Positions 5,964 through 16,923 of a stretch of DNA of 58,876 nucleotides are shown piece after piece. The notes under the pieces were generated by a model. It was not told where the DNA came from. It saw nothing but the letters and a program-made list of their open reading frames with translations, and did no database searches. Source of the stretch: a bacterium. Lineage in GTDB: Bacteria > SZUA-79 > Acidulodesulfobacterales > Acidulodesulfobacteraceae. Location of the stretch: positions 1-58,876 of the forward strand of contig JAJYDX010000009.1 in NCBI GenBank assembly GCA_021777135.1, in the 5' to 3' direction. Made by a program: the position numbers and the translations under genes. How positions within the stretch are numbered: position 1 is the first letter of the stretch; each line of letters starts with the position of its first letter.

Positions 5964-7733
5964 TTAATGAGTAGTTTTAACATTAAGATATGGCAGAATT
6001 TCCTCAAGCGAAGTTAAGCCCGTGAAAAATTTTTCCTTTGCTGAATCGGACAAAGTTTTCATACCTTGCGATAAAGCGGTTTTCTCCAATTCCGATTCAG
6101 TAGCGTTATTATTTATAAGTTCTTTAATATTTTCGTTTATATATAACATTTCATATATGGGTATTCTGCCTTTATAACCAGATTTATTACATGTAGGGCA
6201 TCCCTTTGCTTTATATAATTTTATATAGCCGTTATATTCATCCGCGGCAATACCCATTTTTTTTAAAGTTTCCACCGGAAGTTCTTCTTTGCATTCCAGG
6301 CAAAGTTTTCTTATTAGTCGCTGGGCAATTACAAGATTGAGGCTCGATGCTATTAAAAAAGGTTCTATTTTCATGTTTACCAGCCTAGTAATAGTTGAAA
6401 CGGCATTATTGGTGTGCAGCGTTGAAAGTACTAAGTGTCCCGTTAGAGCTGCTTGAATTGATATTGATGCCGTTTCATTATCCCTTATCTCACCTACCAT
6501 TATTACGTCAGGATCCTGCCTTAAAAACGATCTTAGCGTTTCGGCAAAGTTAAAATAAACGTTTGTTTTCTCGTTTTTAAGTTTTTCATTTACCTGAACC
6601 TGATTAATTCCAGGAAAATCATATTCTATTGGATCTTCAGCGGTAGAAATATTTGAAAATTCGTTATTTAACTCGTTTAATATACAGTATAAAGTCGTAG
6701 TTTTACCCGATCCTGTAGGACCGGTAACCAATATCATTCCGAAAGGTTTATGTATGCATTCGTTAAGTAAATTTAAATGCGTTTGCGAGAAACCTATTTT
6801 ATTTATATCAAAAATAAGTGAAGATTTATTTAAGATTCTCATAACTATTTTTTCGCCGAATAAGGTAGGTATACAGGATACTCTTATATCGATTTCGCGT
6901 CCGCCTAAAGAAACAGTTATTCTTCCGTCTTGCGGAAATCTCTGCTCTGTTATATCAAGTTTTGCTATATTTTTTATACGCGCTATGATATTAGATTTTG
7001 CGGTAGGCGGGGTATTTGAATATTCGCTAAGCCTTCCGTCTATCCTGAATCTTATTCTCGAAAATTTTCTATAAAACTCTATATGTATATCGCTTGCGCC
7101 GCGTTCTACCGCATCGCCGATAACCTTATTGACGTATTTTTCTACCGCGCTAGCGCTGTTTTTATCTTTGCTTATATCACTGACGTCGTTTGATTCATCT
7201 ACTGTCTTAACTATATTGTCGGGGTTTTTAAATTTTTCAAGAAAAAAAGAAGCGTTATAATATTTAGACATTGCGTTTATTATCTGGGAATAGGGGGCAA
7301 CTGAATATACGGTCGGGATTCCGGTAATGAAAGAAATTTCATCTATTATATCGTTTCTTGTGGGGTCAGCGGTTGCTATGCAGAGAGTATTGTTTTCAAT
7401 TTTATAAGGTATGATGCGAAATCTTATGGCTTTTTCCGGAGGAATTATATTTATTATATTTTTTGGAATTTCTATATCATTTATATTAATTTTATTTAAA
7501 AAAAAATATTTTGCCAGGAAATCAGGCAGTTCACTTTCATTTAGCTTGCCTTCGTCGATAAGTATTTTTATTAAAGGTCTTGCAGGCAGGCTTTCCATGC
7601 TTACGGCTGATTCAAAATCATTCCTGGTAATTAAAGAATTTAATACCAGAACCTCGCCTAGTTTATAGTTTTCGTCCTTTCTTGGCACCGATAATTTTTT
7701 ATTTTCTTCCGTTTTATTTGATAAAGAAGCCAT
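5964..7733 (-). CDS. GspE/PilB-type secretion or pilus assembly ATPase
   Basis: This is a cytoplasmic hexameric ATPase of type II secretion or type IV pilus machines. The N-terminal region (about 23-160) has the LGEVLVLNSLI...LIKILIDEGKL pattern of MshEN/GspE_N domains; MshEN domains bind c-di-GMP. The C-terminal motor has Walker A GPTGSGKTTTLY, the Asp box, Walker B with VGEIRDNETA and the His box LHTNNA. The zinc-binding tetracysteine is CLEC...CPTC, followed by GYKGRIPIYE. The length of 589 is normal. No other pilus or secretion genes are adjacent. The globin-coupled HD-GYP gene at 9263 could link it to c-di-GMP. Confidence 0.88.
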   Translation of the reverse strand: MASLSNKTEENKKLSVPRKDENYKLGEVLVLNSLITRNDFESAVSMESLPARPLIKILIDEGKLNESELPDFLAKYFFLNKININDIEIPKNIINIIPPEKAIRFRIIPYKIENNTLCIATADPTRNDIIDEISFITGIPTVYSVAPYSQIINAMSKYYNASFFLEKFKNPDNIVKTVDESNDVSDISKDKNSASAVEKYVNKVIGDAVERGASDIHIEFYRKFSRIRFRIDGRLSEYSNTPPTAKSNIIARIKNIAKLDITEQRFPQDGRITVSLGGREIDIRVSCIPTLFGEKIVMRILNKSSLIFDINKIGFSQTHLNLLNECIHKPFGMILVTGPTGSGKTTTLYCILNELNNEFSNISTAEDPIEYDFPGINQVQVNEKLKNEKTNVYFNFAETLRSFLRQDPDVIMVGEIRDNETASISIQAALTGHLVLSTLHTNNAVSTITRLVNMKIEPFLIASSLNLVIAQRLIRKLCLECKEELPVETLKKMGIAADEYNGYIKLYKAKGCPTCNKSGYKGRIPIYEMLYINENIKELINNNATESELEKTALSQGMKTLSDSAKEKFFTGLTSLEEILPYLNVKTTH

Positions 7734-7875: not shown

Positions 7876-9249
7876 ATGATTAATGTTGATATGAAACTGC
7901 ATAGACATATTCTCCTTTCAGATATTCAAGAACAAAAGCTTTTTGTTCTTCTTAAAATAAATCCAGTTGAAGATATAACATTTAAAAGACAGCCTTTTCG
8001 TATTGTTTTTGCAGTCGATACTTCAGGCTCTATGAGAGATTACACAGATACAGATAAAAAATGCGATGAACTAATTAATGAAAGTTCAGTGGCATTACCA
8101 AAAAAAACTAAAATAGACGTTTTAGTAGAATACTTAATAAATTTATTTGATTCGCAAATTTTTAAAAATGGCGACAAATTAGCCATAGTTCAATTTAATG
8201 ATGCCGCAAAAGTTTTAGTACCTTTCACAGATGCAGAAAATAAGGAAGTATTAATAGATGCCGTAAAAAATTTAAAAGAATGCAGCGGTGGAACAAATAC
8301 TGGGTTAGCAATGAAGACGGCATTAGAACTTTTTTCAAGAGAAAATGGCAATGGCAAAATGTTTCTTCTTACGGATGGAATAACTTTTGACGAAGATTTG
8401 ACTTTAGAAATGTCCGAAGAATTTGCAAAAAATAAAATACCTGTGATTACCATAGGCATAGGGAACGATTGGAACTTTAATTTTATTAATTTATTGGCTG
8501 ACCGCACAGGCGGGAAAGTTTTATATGCCCTTTCCGATAATGGAAATGCCGTTTATCCTCCATATATTAAAGGCGGAGAATTAACGAACGTGCTTATTTC
8601 AGAACTAAATCGTTCTGCCGATGAGATATTTACAAATATAATTTTAAATATTAATACCATCAAGGGTGTCGATATAAAACGCATTTCTAAAGTTTATCCG
8701 GTTCAAACGGAACTAAACTTATCTCGAAAGCCATATTTGCTTGGAAACGCGGAGGCCAGAGATATTACGGTATTTTTAATTGAAATATCGGTTTTCCAAA
8801 ATAGTGCCGGAAAAGTTCGTTTGGCGCAATTTAACTTGACTTATGAAGTAGGAGGCATACCATACAGACAAGAAGGTCCTATTATTGACGTAACGGCAGA
8901 ATTCGTAAAAGAATACGACCATAGTTTAAATTTAAATATAGATAATGAAGTTATGCAATACGTGCAGCAAAGAAATTTAAGCTCGATGGCTGATAGAATT
9001 TCGGAAGAATCAAAGACCAATATTAATAAAGCGGTGGAAATTTTGAAAGCAGCCATGCAAAGCGTTGGTGTAATAAATAATATTCCGGTAATGAGCGTTT
9101 TAAATAATGCCGTCAATGAACTTAAAAATAAAAAAACAATAAGCGAAAGCACTTTAGCCGCATTAAAAGTTGGCGTTAAAACTCACACTATAAAATATGG
9201 CCAGGAAATTTTTACAGACGAAGAAATTAAAAAAATAACGGGAATATAA
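7876..9249 (+). CDS. VWA-domain protein, first paralogue
   Basis: A 457-residue cytoplasmic protein with no signal peptide or membrane segment. After a ~40-residue N-terminal strand region comes a von Willebrand factor A domain (about 41-240) with a complete metal-binding MIDAS: DTSGS (48-52), a GGTNTG threonine and LLTDG. The C-terminal half has a beta-rich segment and then a helical tail around VMQYVQQRNL. It is clearly homologous to the VWA protein at 10702-12039, with the same domain order and the same MQ-VQQRN motif. VWA proteins of this kind often sit with PP2C phosphatases and Ser/Thr kinases (TerY-P-like triads), as here. The ligand is unknown. Confidence 0.88.
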   Translation: MINVDMKLHRHILLSDIQEQKLFVLLKINPVEDITFKRQPFRIVFAVDTSGSMRDYTDTDKKCDELINESSVALPKKTKIDVLVEYLINLFDSQIFKNGDKLAIVQFNDAAKVLVPFTDAENKEVLIDAVKNLKECSGGTNTGLAMKTALELFSRENGNGKMFLLTDGITFDEDLTLEMSEEFAKNKIPVITIGIGNDWNFNFINLLADRTGGKVLYALSDNGNAVYPPYIKGGELTNVLISELNRSADEIFTNIILNINTIKGVDIKRISKVYPVQTELNLSRKPYLLGNAEARDITVFLIEISVFQNSAGKVRLAQFNLTYEVGGIPYRQEGPIIDVTAEFVKEYDHSLNLNIDNEVMQYVQQRNLSSMADRISEESKTNINKAVEILKAAMQSVGVINNIPVMSVLNNAVNELKNKKTISESTLAALKVGVKTHTIKYGQEIFTDEEIKKITGI

Positions 9250-9262
9250 GAAACCATTTAAA

Positions 9263-10444
9263 TCAATCGATAGTTTGATCAATTGATTTTTTTATCTCGA
9301 TTATTTCTTCTATGCCTTTAAGAAATGCGTAAAAACAATCAGGGTCGAAACTTTTGCCTGGCACCATTTCTTTTTCCATTATTTCTATTGCTTTTTTAAT
9401 AGATAAGGAAGGCTTGTAGCATCTTTTACTGACTAACGCGTCAAAAACGTCAGCAATCTTGCAAATCCTTCCTTCTATGGGAATTTCTTCACCCTTAAGA
9501 CCTAGAGGGTATCCTTCGCCGTTAAAGTCTTCATGATGGGATCTGGCAATAATGGAGCCGTCTTTTAAAACTGGCGAACTTGAATTTTTTAGAATTTCAT
9601 ATCCTATATTGCAATGGGTTTTCATTTTTTCAAACTCCTGCTCCGTAAGTTTTCCCGGTTTTAATATAATTTCATCTGGAATTCCTACCTTGCCTATATC
9701 GTGCATTGGACTGGAGTAAAATATTTTTTCTTGAAACAGCTCATCCATTCCGATATTTTTTGCTATTACTTTAGCATAATTAGAAACTCTTGCAATATGG
9801 TCGCCGGTTGCGGCGTCTTTATATTCAGCAATAGTCATGAGCCTGCTTAGCGATTCCTGCTCCATTTTATAATAATCATCCATAGATTTTTTGTAATAGG
9901 ATTCTATGGCAAATGTATTATCTACCGCTAATTTTTTTTGAATTGAATTTGCCGCTTTTAAAGTGCTTATTAAATTAAGTCCTTTTTTTTGGGAGCATTT
10001 AAATATAAATGAGGAAACAAGATTGTTATAATAGCCGTATATCGCTATGTATAAAGAAGGTGAAATGCCAAATATATTATGCGCCAAACCATCTGCTATT
10101 CTATTTTTATAATAACCGTCATCATAATTAAATTCGAACAGGGATTTCAGATAATATATATTGCTCAGTTTTAGCTGTTCAACTAATTCCTTATCTATGT
10201 CCACATTTTCTTTAATGCCGTCTTCCCCGGTAATTCTTGAGTATAATAATTCCGATATTTCTTCGAAATATTCCTCCATACAATTTTTTATGGCTTTAAT
10301 ATTTTCTATATCTTCATTTCCGAAATTTATTGTATTTTCTATAAGCTTCACATGTTGCTCTTCCGTAAGTTTGTCAAGCATGCTTGCGCCTTTAGCCGAT
10401 ATCCCGCAATCTTGTAAAACTTTCTTAAACTTATCCTTATCCAT
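9263..10444 (-). CDS. Globin-coupled HD-GYP phosphodiesterase
   Basis: A probable haem-regulated c-di-GMP phosphodiesterase. Residues about 40-160 match globin-coupled sensor/protoglobin domains: YYLKSLFEFNYDDGYYKNRI, then H122 as the likely proximal haem ligand in GLAHNIFGISPSLY. Residues about 200-385 form a full HD-GYP domain with HDIGKVGIPD (H248, D249), THCNIGYEIL, HHEDFNGEGYP (303-313) and RICKIADVFDAL. There are no membrane segments, so it acts in the cytoplasm. It is encoded antisense between two VWA genes, 13 bp beyond the end of the first. Activity modulated by O2, NO or CO is inferred from the family. Confidence 0.85.
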   Translation of the reverse strand: MDKDKFKKVLQDCGISAKGASMLDKLTEEQHVKLIENTINFGNEDIENIKAIKNCMEEYFEEISELLYSRITGEDGIKENVDIDKELVEQLKLSNIYYLKSLFEFNYDDGYYKNRIADGLAHNIFGISPSLYIAIYGYYNNLVSSFIFKCSQKKGLNLISTLKAANSIQKKLAVDNTFAIESYYKKSMDDYYKMEQESLSRLMTIAEYKDAATGDHIARVSNYAKVIAKNIGMDELFQEKIFYSSPMHDIGKVGIPDEIILKPGKLTEQEFEKMKTHCNIGYEILKNSSSPVLKDGSIIARSHHEDFNGEGYPLGLKGEEIPIEGRICKIADVFDALVSKRCYKPSLSIKKAIEIMEKEMVPGKSFDPDCFYAFLKGIEEIIEIKKSIDQTID

Positions 10445-10701: not shown

Positions 10702-12039
10702 ATGGCAAAAATGTTTGACGTAAAAATTATTCCTCATAGAAATTATTTAATGGCTGACACTCCGGATCAAAAGCTATTTATAGAATTAAAAATTTATTGT
10801 GAAAATAAGACGTCTTTAAAATCTTCCCTTGCCGTGGTTTTTGTCGTGGATACTTCAGGGTCAATGAGGGAGGTCACCGGCGGAAATTCTAAAATAGGCA
10901 TATTGATAAACGGATTAAAAAATATAATAAATTCTTCTAAATTAAAAAGTACTGACAGGGTAAGCATTGTTAAATTTGACGATACGGCAAAAGTTATTCT
11001 TCCTTTAATTAATGCAGAAGATAAAAACAAGAACGTTATAAATTCGGCAATAGAAGATCTAATGAACTATAGCGGAGGCACAAGCATGGGTGCTGGACTA
11101 AAGGAAGCTTTCGACTTAATCTCCCATGAAAAGGCTAGAAAAAGAATTATTATGCTTACTGACGGTCAGACTTCCGACGAAGATTTAACTAGAGAGGTAT
11201 CAGGCTTATTGGCTAAAGAAAATATACCTGTAACCGCTATAGGGATTGGCGAAGAGTGGAATGAAAATTTAATTACTTATATTACGGACCAAACCCAAGG
11301 CAAGCCTTTTTATGCAGTAACGGATGATTCCAAGAGCATAGCGTCTTTAAACATTGCCGTTAATTCTACGGAAATACCGGATATAATGATAAATGAGCTT
11401 GAAAGTGCCGTAAATGAAACCATTACCGGTTTGTCTTTGAGCATAAATGCTGCTAAAGATGTAATTATAGATAAAATTACCAGAGTTTACCCTGAAGTAT
11501 CGGAAGTAAACTTAGCCGTAAAACCGCATTCTCTTGGGAATATAAGCGCGGAAGGAGAAATGGTTTTTATAATAGAGGCTACTTTACCAGAACGCAATCC
11601 CCTAAAATCAAGGCTTATGCAATTAAGCTTGACATACGATGTGCCGAATGAAGATTATAGAGGCGAAAATCCTCCTGAAGACGTTATAGTTGAATTTACG
11701 GTCGACGAGTTGCAGGCCTCTTCTATAAATCAGGAAGTAATGCAGTGGGTGCAACAAAGAAACGTAGGGTCTTTATTAGAAAGGGCTATAGCCGAATCTT
11801 CCCAAAGTCCTGAAAACGCAGCTAAAACGCTAGATATGGCAAGACGCATGACTTTAAAAATAGGAAACGGCGTAATGTCTAAACTAATAGAAAAAGCCCA
11901 GAACGAAATAAGAGAAAATAAAACACTCAGCCTTGGAATGTCTAAAACACTGAAGATAGGCGCTAAAACTAAGACAGTTAAAATAGATGGCGGAGAGGGC
12001 ATTTCTGACGAACAAATAAGAAAAATGACCGGCGTTTAA
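10702..12039 (+). CDS. VWA-domain protein, second paralogue
   Basis: A 445-residue cytoplasmic VWA protein. MIDAS elements are DTSGS (50-54), the YSGGTSMGAGL threonine region and IMLTDGQTSDED. The N-terminus (HRNYLMADTPDQKLFIEL) and the C-terminal helical tail (EVMQWVQQRNVGSLLERA) parallel those of the VWA protein at 7876-9249, which indicates duplication. A clear GGAG ribosome site lies 7 bases before the ATG. It is followed on the same strand, after 128 bp, by the PP2C fusion and then the kinase. A role as a metal-dependent adaptor or substrate of that kinase/phosphatase pair is inferred from similar gene triads. Confidence 0.88.
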   Translation: MAKMFDVKIIPHRNYLMADTPDQKLFIELKIYCENKTSLKSSLAVVFVVDTSGSMREVTGGNSKIGILINGLKNIINSSKLKSTDRVSIVKFDDTAKVILPLINAEDKNKNVINSAIEDLMNYSGGTSMGAGLKEAFDLISHEKARKRIIMLTDGQTSDEDLTREVSGLLAKENIPVTAIGIGEEWNENLITYITDQTQGKPFYAVTDDSKSIASLNIAVNSTEIPDIMINELESAVNETITGLSLSINAAKDVIIDKITRVYPEVSEVNLAVKPHSLGNISAEGEMVFIIEATLPERNPLKSRLMQLSLTYDVPNEDYRGENPPEDVIVEFTVDELQASSINQEVMQWVQQRNVGSLLERAIAESSQSPENAAKTLDMARRMTLKIGNGVMSKLIEKAQNEIRENKTLSLGMSKTLKIGAKTKTVKIDGGEGISDEQIRKMTGV

Positions 12040-12167: not shown

Positions 12168-13700
12168 ATGAAAACAACTTCTGTGGTTCCAGGTCCTGGT
12201 GACGTTTTGAACGTCAAAGGAATTAATATATCGATAAAGCAGCCTTATATTGGAAATTGGTATAAAGCTGAAAAAATAGATGGAGAGGAGGTATTGTATT
12301 CAAATGGAAATTGGAGTTTATGGAAAAACGCTCCTCAATTCTCCTTGCTCCCAAAAATATTAGCTTGTTCTGAAAACGATATAATAATTGATATTGTCAA
12401 AGAATGTGACTCAAAATTAGAATTTAAACCTTCTCTTAAAAAAGAATATATCGATTTAATTATTTATGGACTTGCTGAAATAGCAGAGATTATTAAATAT
12501 TTTAACGATAAAAAAATATCCGTTTTATATATTAACCCGGATTCTTTATATTTATGCGACGGTAAATTGCTATTAAATTTATTGCCGGATTTATGTGAAA
12601 TAAATAAAACGACGTTTTCGTCTAAGGATTTCGTTGCGCCAGAAGTTTTTAGACATGAAAAGGCAACAGGAAAAGAAGGGGTATTCGTACTTGGAGCGTT
12701 AATCGTTAAATTATTTACCGGAGAAACTATAAATTCATACGAAAACGAGACTAATATCGCAAATTATATCGCAAATATAAATATTCCTGGTATTCCTCAA
12801 TTTATTGCTAAGACACTTACAAGTGCCGAATACAGATTTACGCCTTCTGAAGCGGCAGATTATTTAAAAAGTATAATTGAAGAAAGAAAACTCCCAGTTA
12901 AGTTCGATGTGGGCATGTCTTCATCTGTCGGGTTAAACGAAGACAGGGCTATAGACGAAGATAGTTGCGGTTTTGCCATAGAAAATGTTTTAAATTCTAC
13001 CGGAAGAAGTTTATTAATGCGTGCATGTCTTGCAGACGGAATGGGAGGGATGACTGCCGGTGATGTTGCCAGCAAAGCGGCGGTAGAGGGCTTTTTAAAA
13101 AATACAGCGAATAGCTTTCAAGAAATAAACGGTTTAGCCTTGGACCTTGCATGGCAGGCAAACGATAACGTTTTTAAGTGTTTGGGTGGGAAAGACGGAG
13201 GATGCACTTTTATTGGCATTGTTTTTAAAGATAATAATTTTGCGCTTGCACATGTAGGCGATTCAAGAGCATATATATTTAAGACTTCTGAAAACGAATC
13301 AAAATTTATCTGCCTTACTAAAGACCATTCTTATGTAGCTCTTATGGTGTCTAACGGAAATATGACAGAAGAAGAAGCAAATAATAGTCCCGATAGGAAT
13401 AAAATTTTAAAATCTCTCGGTTCCGTTAGAAACAGACAAGAAGGCTATATAGACGACTTACAAAAAACTACAGGAAAAAAAACAGAAAATTTAGAAAAAG
13501 GAGATATGCTTATATTAGTTTGCGACGGCATATGGTCTGAAATAACCGACGGAGATTTTAAAAAAATTTTAAACGCCACGGGAGATAAATTAAATATTAA
13601 TGCGGATTCTCAATATATAGCCGATATTTTAGTTGATACCGCTATAAAAAACGGTGGAAGAGATAACGCATCCGCTCTTGTAATTAAAAGAATTTCTTAA
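12168..13700 (+). CDS. Pseudokinase-PP2C phosphatase fusion
   Basis: A 510-residue cytoplasmic protein. Residues about 25-240 keep the outline of a protein kinase fold: a VLYINPDSLYL segment where HRDxKPxN should be, LLPDL for DFG, FVAPEV for the APE motif, and VFVLGALIVKLFTGE for the helix after it. The catalytic Lys, HRD Asp and DFG Asp are not recognisable. Residues about 245-510 form a PP2C (PPM) phosphatase with NED at 257-259, LADGMGG (289-294), HVGDSRAY, LVCDG and GGRDNAS, so all main metal-binding acidic residues appear to be present. It lies 11 bp upstream of the Ser/Thr kinase gene, so it probably dephosphorylates that kinase or its targets. Confidence 0.86.
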   Translation: MKTTSVVPGPGDVLNVKGINISIKQPYIGNWYKAEKIDGEEVLYSNGNWSLWKNAPQFSLLPKILACSENDIIIDIVKECDSKLEFKPSLKKEYIDLIIYGLAEIAEIIKYFNDKKISVLYINPDSLYLCDGKLLLNLLPDLCEINKTTFSSKDFVAPEVFRHEKATGKEGVFVLGALIVKLFTGETINSYENETNIANYIANINIPGIPQFIAKTLTSAEYRFTPSEAADYLKSIIEERKLPVKFDVGMSSSVGLNEDRAIDEDSCGFAIENVLNSTGRSLLMRACLADGMGGMTAGDVASKAAVEGFLKNTANSFQEINGLALDLAWQANDNVFKCLGGKDGGCTFIGIVFKDNNFALAHVGDSRAYIFKTSENESKFICLTKDHSYVALMVSNGNMTEEEANNSPDRNKILKSLGSVRNRQEGYIDDLQKTTGKKTENLEKGDMLILVCDGIWSEITDGDFKKILNATGDKLNINADSQYIADILVDTAIKNGGRDNASALVIKRIS

Positions 13701-13711
13701 ATATCATAAAT

Positions 13712-15409
13712 ATGATAATTTGTCCTTATTGTTCTTCTTCTATAGCCGAAAACTTAAAAATATGTCCTGTATGCGGAGGTAGTTTAGATATTGCCTATCC
13801 CACCTGCGAGCCCCTTTCTGAGGGAAGCGTTATTAATGAAAAATATAGAATCGAGAAGGTTTTAGGAAGCGGAGGTTTTGGCATAACTTATCTTGCCTAT
13901 GACGAAAAGTTAGACAGAAAAGTTGCGGTTAAAGAATATTTTCCTGACGGAGTTGCTACAAGAACCGGCAATAAAGTCACTATACCTCCCACTCTTGATA
14001 ATAACGAAAATATTCAAGGTTTTAAAAATGAAGCAAAATCCATTGCGAAATTAAGAAATCCTGGCATAGTCAACGTTTACGATGTAATAGAAGAAAACGA
14101 TACGGTTTATATTGTTATGGAGTATATAGAAGGCGAACCGTTTTCCTCGCTACTTGGAAAAATAGACGAAAAAGCAGCCGTGAAATATATGAGGCACATT
14201 GCCGAGGCGATAGGTTACGTTCATATTGCGGGACTGCTTCATCAGGATATTAAACCGGAAAATATAATACTCACCAAAGACGGAATCGTTAAAATTATAG
14301 ATTTCGGTTCTTCGAGAGTATTTGCCGCTGATAAGACCAAGACCTACGAAAAAATATTAACGCCGGGTTATGCTCCTTTGGAACAATATGGAGGGAGAGG
14401 CAAAAGAGGCGAATATACTGATGTGTATGCAATTTGTGCTACGCTTTACGCTCTATTAAAAGGTTTTCCTCCTCCAGAATCTACCGAGCTGGCAGGCGGT
14501 GCTGAGATAGATTATTCCGGAATAAGCGAAAATTTAAAAAATATTCTTAAAAAAGGGTTGTCTGTTAAAATTCCGGAAAGAATACAAAATACTTTAAATT
14601 TAATTAAACTTTTTGACGAGTTAGACGGGTCTGATAATAAAATTATAGGACAAGCAACCCAAAACACTGCCGTATATGATGGACTTAATAAAAATGAAAA
14701 TATTGATACGGAGCTAGATAAACATGATATAGAAACGTCCTTAAACAACGTCAAAAATAGCGGCATACAGGCTCAGGCTAATAAGGAAGGTTATTCAAAT
14801 CATAGTAAAAAAAGCATAACGTCTTTTTTTTCTATCTTCTTAGTTATTGCAGCAGTTTTGTCTCTAATTGCGGCGACTTATATATATTATCCTTATATCT
14901 TGAATATTTTTAAAGGATTCACTGGTGAATCTATGAATAAAACAAAATTAAAGGAATCGATGATAAATAAAAAAAATATAAAAAATGAAAATAACAAGAA
15001 AAGTAAAGAAACAAAAAGCATTAACGTTAACGCTAATGCTTCTGAAACTTCCAAAACATATACGAGTAACCATAGTGCCGCTTTATCTAAACCCTTGCCT
15101 CATCCGCATTATATTAGGCAAAGACCGGTTCCCCAAATAGTTCAAGCACCGAGCATTTTCAGAAGCAGCCCTAATGTATTTCACGGTCAAGGCTATAAGG
15201 ACTTTAGCATATCGGGATGTTTTTACTGCCATATTATTTACGGCAAGGGGAGCAAAAACGGAAGTAATCTTTCACATGTAGGTTCGCAATTAAGTTTGCC
15301 CCAGATAGAAAATAAAATAACCCATCCCAATTCTTCTATGCCTCCTAATCCGAATATGCCTACTCAGGAGGTTGAACAAATTGCCGGATGGCTTGAAAGT
15401 TTAAAATAA
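13712..15409 (+). CDS. Transmembrane Ser/Thr kinase with N-terminal zinc ribbon and C-terminal cytochrome c domain
   Basis: A 565-residue protein. Domains in order: zinc ribbon (C4, C7, C18, C21); Hanks-type kinase (about 45-305) with GSGGFG (52-57), K74, E107, HQDIKPEN (D179, N184), DFG (197-199) and an APLEQYG activation end; a charged linker; one membrane helix (about 371-393); a Lys/Asn-rich then Pro-rich linker; and a C-terminal ~65-residue class I cytochrome c-like domain. That domain has CFYCH at 503-507 and SSMPP (M543) as the probable distal ligand, ending in the typical helix EVEQIAGWLESL. Topology puts the kinase inside and the haem domain outside, where c-type haem is attached. 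This fits a redox or gas sensor kinase. I do not know of a described kinase with this architecture. Confidence 0.85.
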   Translation: MIICPYCSSSIAENLKICPVCGGSLDIAYPTCEPLSEGSVINEKYRIEKVLGSGGFGITYLAYDEKLDRKVAVKEYFPDGVATRTGNKVTIPPTLDNNENIQGFKNEAKSIAKLRNPGIVNVYDVIEENDTVYIVMEYIEGEPFSSLLGKIDEKAAVKYMRHIAEAIGYVHIAGLLHQDIKPENIILTKDGIVKIIDFGSSRVFAADKTKTYEKILTPGYAPLEQYGGRGKRGEYTDVYAICATLYALLKGFPPPESTELAGGAEIDYSGISENLKNILKKGLSVKIPERIQNTLNLIKLFDELDGSDNKIIGQATQNTAVYDGLNKNENIDTELDKHDIETSLNNVKNSGIQAQANKEGYSNHSKKSITSFFSIFLVIAAVLSLIAATYIYYPYILNIFKGFTGESMNKTKLKESMINKKNIKNENNKKSKETKSINVNANASETSKTYTSNHSAALSKPLPHPHYIRQRPVPQIVQAPSIFRSSPNVFHGQGYKDFSISGCFYCHIIYGKGSKNGSNLSHVGSQLSLPQIENKITHPNSSMPPNPNMPTQEVEQIAGWLESLK

Positions 15410-15450
15410 TTTATAATTTAATGTATTTAATAATTAAAAAAGGGGTTAAT

Positions 15451-15978
15451 ATGAAAAAGAAAAATTTTATTTTTTTAAAAATGTTAATTTTAGCTCAGGT
15501 TTTTATTGCCGCAATTTTTGCTTTCAATGCATCAAATTGTTATGCGCAAGTCGGCAACACTTTAAAAAAAATGCAGATTCAATATCATATGAAAAGAATT
15601 TCGATAAGTAAATTGTATTTATTAGAGCCTAATCTTTCGCAGTATAATTATAAAAACTCAAAGGTAATGGCTTTTGAATATACTTTAAATAAAGTTAAAT
15701 ACGAAGCAGTTTTTAACGCTTCCGGGGTATGCTGGATGGAATTTGCGGTCGCCGACAGTTCCACGGTTATACCATTAAGCGCTTTAATTCAAAAAAATCT
15801 TTACGGATATCCGATTTTATTCAAAACTTTAAAATACATACCAAACGAATACGAAAAACTACAATACGGAAGGAATATCGGGAAAGTAATTTATATTATG
15901 CAATATATTTATGAAAATAATTCAATATTGCAGGAAGCCGTAATGCCTTCAATGTCGCCAGACGGCAATTATTATTAA
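15451..15978 (+). CDS. Small exported protein of unknown function
   Basis: Not recognised. I start it at the ATG at 15451, which has an AAGGGG ribosome site and begins directly with a lysine-rich signal peptide; an upstream in-frame ATG at 15421 would add an unlikely 10 residues. The signal peptide runs to about residue 31 (CYA), leaving a mature protein of about 145 residues. It has aromatic-rich strands, one Cys-Trp pair (GVCWMEF) and a Gly/Tyr-rich end. It follows the cytochrome-kinase gene by 41 bp and ends at a strong terminator, so it is probably the last gene of the signalling operon. A periplasmic partner of the kinase is a guess. Confidence 0.7.
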   Translation: MKKKNFIFLKMLILAQVFIAAIFAFNASNCYAQVGNTLKKMQIQYHMKRISISKLYLLEPNLSQYNYKNSKVMAFEYTLNKVKYEAVFNASGVCWMEFAVADSSTVIPLSALIQKNLYGYPILFKTLKYIPNEYEKLQYGRNIGKVIYIMQYIYENNSILQEAVMPSMSPDGNYY

Positions 15979-16079: not shown

Positions 16080-16829
16080 TTATGGCAGTAAATTTGCAAT
16101 TGAATGAGCCATCTGTTGTTTTAATAAAGGTTCGGCTGATGTGAATACGAGGTTCATTGCCGATGCCTGAGACACTATCCTATCCCTGTATATAGCCCAA
16201 TTTTTTATGCCGGAGTTGTAGGTTGTAATATTGCTTGCAGTGCCTTGGCTTGCATTTGTGGAATTCGTAGTGTAAGTTCCAGCCTGTCTTTGTTCGAGCT
16301 GGATGTCAACGACCATCATATAGTTTTTGTTTTGAAACAATGAACCGATGATACCGCCAGCCAGTGCGCCAAGCGCGCCGCCTGCCACCATCGAGGTCCC
16401 TGAGTTATATCTCGAGCCTGCAAAAGCGCCGCCGAAACCGCCTGCTAAAGCGCCTGCGACGGTATAGTTGTTAGATTCTACCCCAATATATAGTATATTG
16501 GACATAAGCATAAAATTGGCTTCCTGAGGATTATTGGTTACTCTGTAGCCTTCGCTTATTAAGGCTGAAGTAAGTTCGTTTCTAAAATTAAGCCCCGTAG
16601 CCGTGGAAGTGTTTCTTGTACTTACATATACAATCTTATCCTGTGGAGCAACAGGTTGCAGGAATATGCTGGAACTCATTTTAGTGCTCAATGCGACGTT
16701 GCCGGACGAAAGGCCGCTTGCACTTGTTGTTGGACCTGCCGTAGTGGCGCATCCCGAAAAAGCAATGGCCGGTAGAAGAAAAAGCACAGTCAAGGCAAAT
16801 AGTTTAAGCTTTGAAACATTATAATGCAT
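16080..16829 (-). CDS. TraT-like complement-resistance outer-membrane lipoprotein
   Basis: A 249-residue lipoprotein. The start at 16829 is chosen because AAGGAGG lies just upstream and the signal peptide begins at once; a longer frame to 16868 is unlikely. The lipobox is AFSGC. The mature protein has the TraT-family features: a strand region with VYVSTRNTS, then EANFMLMSNILYIG, then a glycine-rich double hydrophobic segment (GALAGGFGGAFAGS...GGALGALAGGIIGSLF), then MVVDIQLEQR. TraT is known from F plasmids, but chromosomal homologues are common in Gram-negative bacteria and nothing here suggests a plasmid. The role in this organism is unknown. Confidence 0.85.
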   Translation of the reverse strand: MHYNVSKLKLFALTVLFLLPAIAFSGCATTAGPTTSASGLSSGNVALSTKMSSSIFLQPVAPQDKIVYVSTRNTSTATGLNFRNELTSALISEGYRVTNNPQEANFMLMSNILYIGVESNNYTVAGALAGGFGGAFAGSRYNSGTSMVAGGALGALAGGIIGSLFQNKNYMMVVDIQLEQRQAGTYTTNSTNASQGTASNITTYNSGIKNWAIYRDRIVSQASAMNLVFTSAEPLLKQQMAHSIANLLP

Positions 16830-16923
16830 TTGATAACCTCCTTGTTTGAATTTATAAAATAAACCCATTAAAATATAAGGCGATTTAATTATATTTTATC
16901 ATAATTCCAATATTCTTTATTTA

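Follow-up and report, generated by a model that had tools for sequence, protein, structure and literature searches.

The locus described here raises the question of whether a bacterial Ser/Thr kinase can take its input from a cytochrome c on the outer side of the membrane. Where bacterial Ser/Thr kinases have an outer input domain, the ligands known for it come mainly from the cell wall, and sensors with covalent haem have so far been described on chemoreceptors and two-component kinases. In the 58,876-nucleotide stretch of DNA that we analyzed (the window), an earlier note had read positions 13712-15409 of the forward strand as one frame joining a zinc ribbon, a Hanks-type kinase, one membrane helix and a class I cytochrome c. 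ORF analysis, Pfam searches and hydropathy bear this reading out. The ORF is unbroken and encodes 565 amino acids in which the four parts follow each other in that order, and over the same positions the opposite strand carries no open frame of comparable kind.

The N-terminal zinc ribbon (residues 1-30, 13712-13801; all parts of this protein lie on the + strand) is indicated by two CxxC pairs (CPYC at residues 4-7 and CPVC at residues 18-21) and by sub-threshold Pfam matches to DZR_2 (E 0.0045), DZR and Zn_ribbon. It is followed by the Ser/Thr kinase domain (residues 45-293, 13844-14590; Pfam PF00069, Pkinase, E 6.6e-39). The catalytic lysine (K74 in VAVK), the HxD motif (H177-x-D179-x-K181, with HQD), the DFG motif (D197-F198-G199) and the activation-segment motif GYAPLEQY are all present, which places the protein among the transmembrane Hanks-type Ser/Thr kinases, and these residues are intact in 10 of the 10 copies that we found. 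Hydropathy assigns the single transmembrane helix to residues 369-387 (14816-14872), and one hydrophobic segment was found in each of the ten copies. Since there is one such helix and no N-terminal export signal, the cytochrome is predicted to lie outside and the kinase inside, and the periplasmic placement of the haem domain in the earlier note holds. A low-complexity, N/K/P-rich periplasmic linker (residues 388-486, 14873-15169) evolves fast, as judged from identity and dN/dS, and shares 18-38% identity with orthologues and paralogue. The cytochrome c domain occupies residues 487-565 (15170-15406).

When the C-terminal domain was compared alone with Pfam, it matched Cytochrome_CBB3 with an E-value of 4e-5, which is below the cut-off of that model, and Cytochrom_C with 7e-4, exactly at the 21.3-bit cut-off. 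We then aligned 21 domains, 14 of the fused type and seven small cytochromes of the same genome. Both cysteines and the histidine (C503, C506, H507) of the CFYCH haem c attachment motif (residues 503-507, 15218-15232) are invariant in all 21 sequences, and so are Met543 (15338-15340), the candidate distal axial ligand, and several glycine, proline and leucine positions; motif and methionine were found at exactly the residues that had been named before. An AlphaFold2 model built on this alignment (pLDDT 86.2, pTM 0.76) has the class I helix order. Among the Foldseek matches listed for the PDB, all were cytochromes c or cytochrome c-bearing proteins, although the best E-value was only 7.7e-3; examples are P. 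aeruginosa c551 (TM 0.71 at 23% identity), SorU and Bacillus pasteurii c553. A profile search of the PDB yielded c551/c552, cbb3 and other cytochrome c proteins, with a di-haem cytochrome as best match (E 2.8e-12).

The earlier note had named fold prediction and the fate of the motif in orthologues as checks of this domain, and both came out in its favour: the predicted structure is that of a class I cytochrome c with cytochromes c as PDB matches, and CxxCH is retained in every orthologue and in the paralogue of the same genome. A CxxCH on the N-terminal side, a Met ligand on the C-terminal side, the fold, the export topology and a maturation gene were all found, and covalent haem is predicted. 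The maturation gene encodes ResB, a System II cytochrome c maturation protein, and in the relatives G004, G009 and G014 genes of the CcsA and ResB types are found at a distance of a few genes from the kinase gene (the G004 pair was Pfam-checked). Alignment and structural model confirm that the C-terminal part is a true class I cytochrome c domain, to which haem would be attached.

Intact genes of the kinase-helix-cytochrome c type number ten in nine genomes, all of one bacterial family, which is what came of the search for this architecture in other genomes that had been suggested. Two of them belong to the genome of the window, where the second copy lies on contig C12 and is 61% identical. 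Elsewhere, a copy is split by a stop or frameshift (G027), interrupted by a contig end (G020) or reduced to a 111-aa tail after an apparent deletion (G028). Between the window protein and the other copies, identity amounts to 68-89% in the kinase and 69-82% in the cytochrome, but to 9-38% in the linkers, which show large indels. The dN/dS ratios of seven pairs follow the same pattern, with 0.07-0.16 for the kinase, 0.37-0.54 for the linker (residues 301-485) and 0.03-0.17 for the cytochrome. These low values at the two domains, compared with the linker, indicate that selection maintains both ends of the protein and not its middle, and by this measure the cytochrome domain is under purifying selection as strong as that on the kinase.

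Such a frame might also arise from an error of assembly, or from non-functional read-through between a kinase gene and a cytochrome gene, the more so as the window comes from a 2.1 Mb draft assembly of 92 contigs and as the G027 and G028 copies are broken. However, the ten intact copies stem from nine assemblies and their linkers are saturated whereas their domains are conserved, which leaves a degenerate or chance fusion hardly credible. A chance CxxCH or a frame artefact was rejected because of the ten conserved copies and the dN/dS pattern.

The fused cytochromes form a family of their own. A profile of the fused domain, run on 386 genomes, retrieved 14 fused-type domains at 153-166 bits, 14 of 14 in this bacterial family, and the next match scored 61. 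In the tree they constitute one clade (100/100) separate from the soluble cytochromes; they have 33 invariant columns and lack a loop of about 18 residues that is present in the closest soluble paralogues. Neither about 356 genomes outside the family nor 195 genomes of one other phylum gave a kinase-cytochrome c fusion with this profile, which a divergent cytochrome would escape. Two matches in the other phylum (frames of 472-481 aa) appeared by eye to be cytochrome b with a cytochrome c tail. Among the kinase frames (HxD..N and DFG motifs) of the loci examined, CxxCH occurs only in this family, which is isolated in the search set, with no relatives between family and domain level. A role in anti-phage defence (PD-T4-6, MADS) was rejected since the similarity is confined to the kinase domain: most PADLOC matches lie within it, a few extend into the linker and none reaches the cytochrome, and the MAD6 model scored 109 against a cut-off of 460.

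The kinase-cytochrome gene is always located next to a PP2C phosphatase gene. In the window this gene (12168-13700, +; Pfam PP2C 4.3e-11, Stp1-type PP2C 1.2e-38), the product of which has an N-terminal pseudokinase-like region, ends 11 bases ahead of the kinase start. Pfam identified two vWA proteins (10702-12039 and 7876-9249, both +) that are 41% identical to each other; in the family genomes searched, the former has matches above 300 bits only where the kinase is present. Between the two vWA genes, 9263-10444 (-) encodes a protoglobin-HD-GYP protein (Pfam Protoglobin 2.2e-16, HD_5 2.8e-33), which is likely an O2-linked c-di-GMP phosphodiesterase. The head of the cassette is formed by a divergent PilB-type ATPase with an MshEN domain of the c-di-GMP-binding type (5964-7733, -; T2SSE 2e-134, MshEN 2e-15), which scores 636.9 bits with the TIGR02538 PilB model at a cut-off of 675.65. 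The order in the window is PilB-type ATPase (-), vWA, protoglobin-HD-GYP (-), vWA, PP2C, kinase-cytochrome and a small secreted protein, and the usual order in the relatives and around the paralogue of the same genome is vWA, zinc ribbon-FHA, PP2C, kinase and small secreted protein. Where the flank is present, vWA genes are found too, usually an FHA gene and often the divergent PilB-like ATPase (7 of the 9 loci with enough flank); the PilB-like calls were Pfam-checked only in the two copies of the window's genome and the FHA call only in G004. Five strong matches to PilB/GspE-type ATPases were counted in this genome, and two of them adjoin kinase cassettes.

Comparison of two relatives shows that the whole cassette comes or goes as one block. 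In G014 it is flanked by an ammonium transporter gene on one side and by the small secreted gene on the other. These two genes, 98% and 92% identical to those of G014, directly adjoin each other in G002, where the cassette and its PilB gene are missing. The small secreted protein (15421-15978, +, directly downstream of the kinase) is a usual neighbour that was found in this family only among the 61 genomes searched, and its AlphaFold2 model is poor (pLDDT 51). We rejected it as an obligate ligand or partner because G002 keeps the gene at a site without the whole cassette; it is a neighbour and not an obligate cassette part. A distant relative of it adjoins a pilin-like gene (L158). Farther downstream in the window, a TraT-like surface lipoprotein gene (16080-16868, -; Pfam TraT E 9e-56) lies in a chromosomal context.

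Two genomes, G003 and G023, have this same cytochrome c domain on a different membrane protein, the gene of which follows directly after those for GrpE and an Hsp70 paralogue (L126:4142-7633, in G003, and L127:3737-7298). This protein consists of an unrelated N-terminal part of about 200 residues, for which we found no matching Pfam family, one transmembrane helix, a linker and the cytochrome c. A genome search showed that the kinase gene is absent from both genomes. In G003 the GrpE/Hsp70 set occupies the window's own chromosomal site, where vWA, PP2C, kinase and PilB are missing: the upstream neighbour is 87% identical to that of the window, and the downstream small secreted, TraT-like, MltG-like, RuvX-like and BioB-like genes, some of which we named by sequence recognition, are 68-86% identical. 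The haem domain therefore reads as an input module that can be transferred and that serves two different outputs in the cytoplasm, and its presence in both gene sets is the strongest argument for an input module rather than a passenger. The exchange of the kinase output for Hsp70 is an unusual case in which nature itself tests modularity. What the earlier note had missed is the conserved cassette, the second copy in the genome and this Hsp70/GrpE version of the module. Other relatives (L179, L180, L181, L182, L183) carry a similar cytochrome c tail on a multi-helix membrane protein with another CxxCH and on a di-haem peroxidase-like protein, so that the lineage uses this tail as an add-on.

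With moderate confidence, we propose that the protein is a transmembrane receptor Ser/Thr kinase that receives its input through a class I cytochrome c with covalently bound haem in the periplasm. The sequence-level support covers the architecture, the catalytic residues, the fold, purifying selection, the cassette and the maturation genes, and makes the haem domain a plausible sensor controlling the kinase; we infer haem attachment, redox as the signal, its effect on kinase activity and the targets. System II (ResB/CcsA) would attach haem at C503/C506, with His507 and Met543 as axial ligands. Its redox state would be set by periplasmic donors and acceptors, such as small soluble cytochromes c, the quinol-cytochrome c chain, or Fe or S couples. 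A redox-dependent shape or partner binding might then alter kinase dimerisation or proximity via the flexible linker and the single transmembrane helix. Substrates of the kinase in the cytoplasm would be FHA, vWA and zinc-ribbon proteins and perhaps the PilB-type ATPase, and the product of the adjacent PP2C gene would reverse their phosphorylation. For PilB, it is the gene neighbourhood that points to the kinase, and the two may be linked. A cytochrome c that is conserved across the family on the outer side of the kinase points to a protein that reports the redox state beyond the membrane as protein phosphorylation inside the cell.

Redox sensing is favoured over gas sensing because the candidate distal methionine is invariant in the aligned domains, which predicts His/Met ligation. 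A gas sensor appears quite improbable; in it, NO or CO would displace Met543 on ferrous haem and so switch on the kinase, a mechanism that has been proposed for haem c Cache domains. NO is able to displace the methionine in some cytochromes c, and this counts for such a sensor. Tight NO binding is also on record for the haem c sensor domain of a signalling protein (PMC12889525). However, sensors with an exchangeable water ligand differ from the present copies, all of which keep the methionine, and among the neighbouring genes examined none deals with NO.

The chief rival of the redox receptor is a docking or electron-transfer module that places the kinase, or the Hsp70 machinery, by a respiratory or periplasmic electron-transfer complex, with kinase activity independent of the haem redox state. 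Electron transfer is also the standard task of a His/Met cytochrome c, and the electron-transfer cytochromes have the same fold and ligand set as the present domain; the similar tails on the di-haem peroxidase-like and CxxCH-bearing membrane proteins of the lineage are presumably not sensors; and the long, flexible and variable linker offers no obvious rigid path for a conformational signal. Against this, the separate clade of the fused copies, with its invariant columns and without the loop of the soluble paralogues, suggests a specialised role, and docking and sensing are not mutually exclusive. We consider docking alone unlikely. If the redox receptor is real, an uncultured lineage would possess a Ser/Thr kinase that is directly connected to the electron flow of the periplasm. 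A still broader picture, which we regard as doubtful, is that of a modular haem c receptor in the periplasm to which either the kinase/phosphatase/vWA/FHA switch or a dedicated Hsp70/GrpE chaperone can be coupled, and which steers a PilB-driven, type IV pilus-like envelope machine by the periplasmic redox state.

The earlier note knew of no described kinase with a covalent-haem sensor, and our text searches, mainly of the non-subscription literature, turned up no Ser/Thr kinase with a haem c domain, although unannotated fusions are possible elsewhere. With receptor-like Hanks kinases (PknB/PASTA and others) the protein shares the cytoplasmic N-terminal kinase, the single transmembrane helix and the extracytoplasmic C-terminal input. 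However, PASTA-type kinases carry PASTA or other known extracellular domains as input, whereas a haem c protein takes this place here; Pfam detected no PASTA repeat in the protein, and the PASTA kinase model scored 170.6 bits against a cut-off of 450. The eukaryotic HRI is a haem-regulated eIF2alpha kinase and thus resembles the regulation proposed here, but it is cytosolic, binds haem non-covalently and uses an unrelated domain. An M. tuberculosis Ser/Thr kinase with a DsbA-like domain, which we take to be PknE, is similar in that its extracytoplasmic domain is of a redox type. This domain differs from ours by disulphide chemistry, lack of haem and an unrelated fold. In a survey of Ser/Thr kinase architectures from 2005, the main text of which contains no cytochrome, it is described as extracellular and DsbA/thioredoxin-like (PMC1262709).

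Haem c sensors with Cache/PAS-like folds exist on chemoreceptors and two-component proteins (DcrA, GSU0582, GSU0935, DUF3365/Tll0287; PMC8396549, PMC12889525). They have in common with our protein the periplasmic covalent haem (here predicted), the transmembrane signalling protein and the proposed redox or NO sensing. In contrast, they graft a CxxCH onto a Cache/PAS-like fold on chemoreceptors or histidine kinases, and here a complete class I cytochrome c sits on a Ser/Thr kinase; the model of our domain gave no Cache/PAS-like fold with an inserted CxxCH but a predicted cytochrome c fold. For the GAP1-N2 systems, a zinc-ribbon/transmembrane kinase with PP2C and vWA, and Hsp70 with GrpE and TPR, are listed as alternative themes (PMC7159879), which are the same two alternative gene sets as found here. 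No GAP1 or GTPase component was detected among the cassette genes scanned with Pfam, and, unlike in those systems, both gene sets here have the membrane module with haem c as their common hub, and a PilB gene is added.
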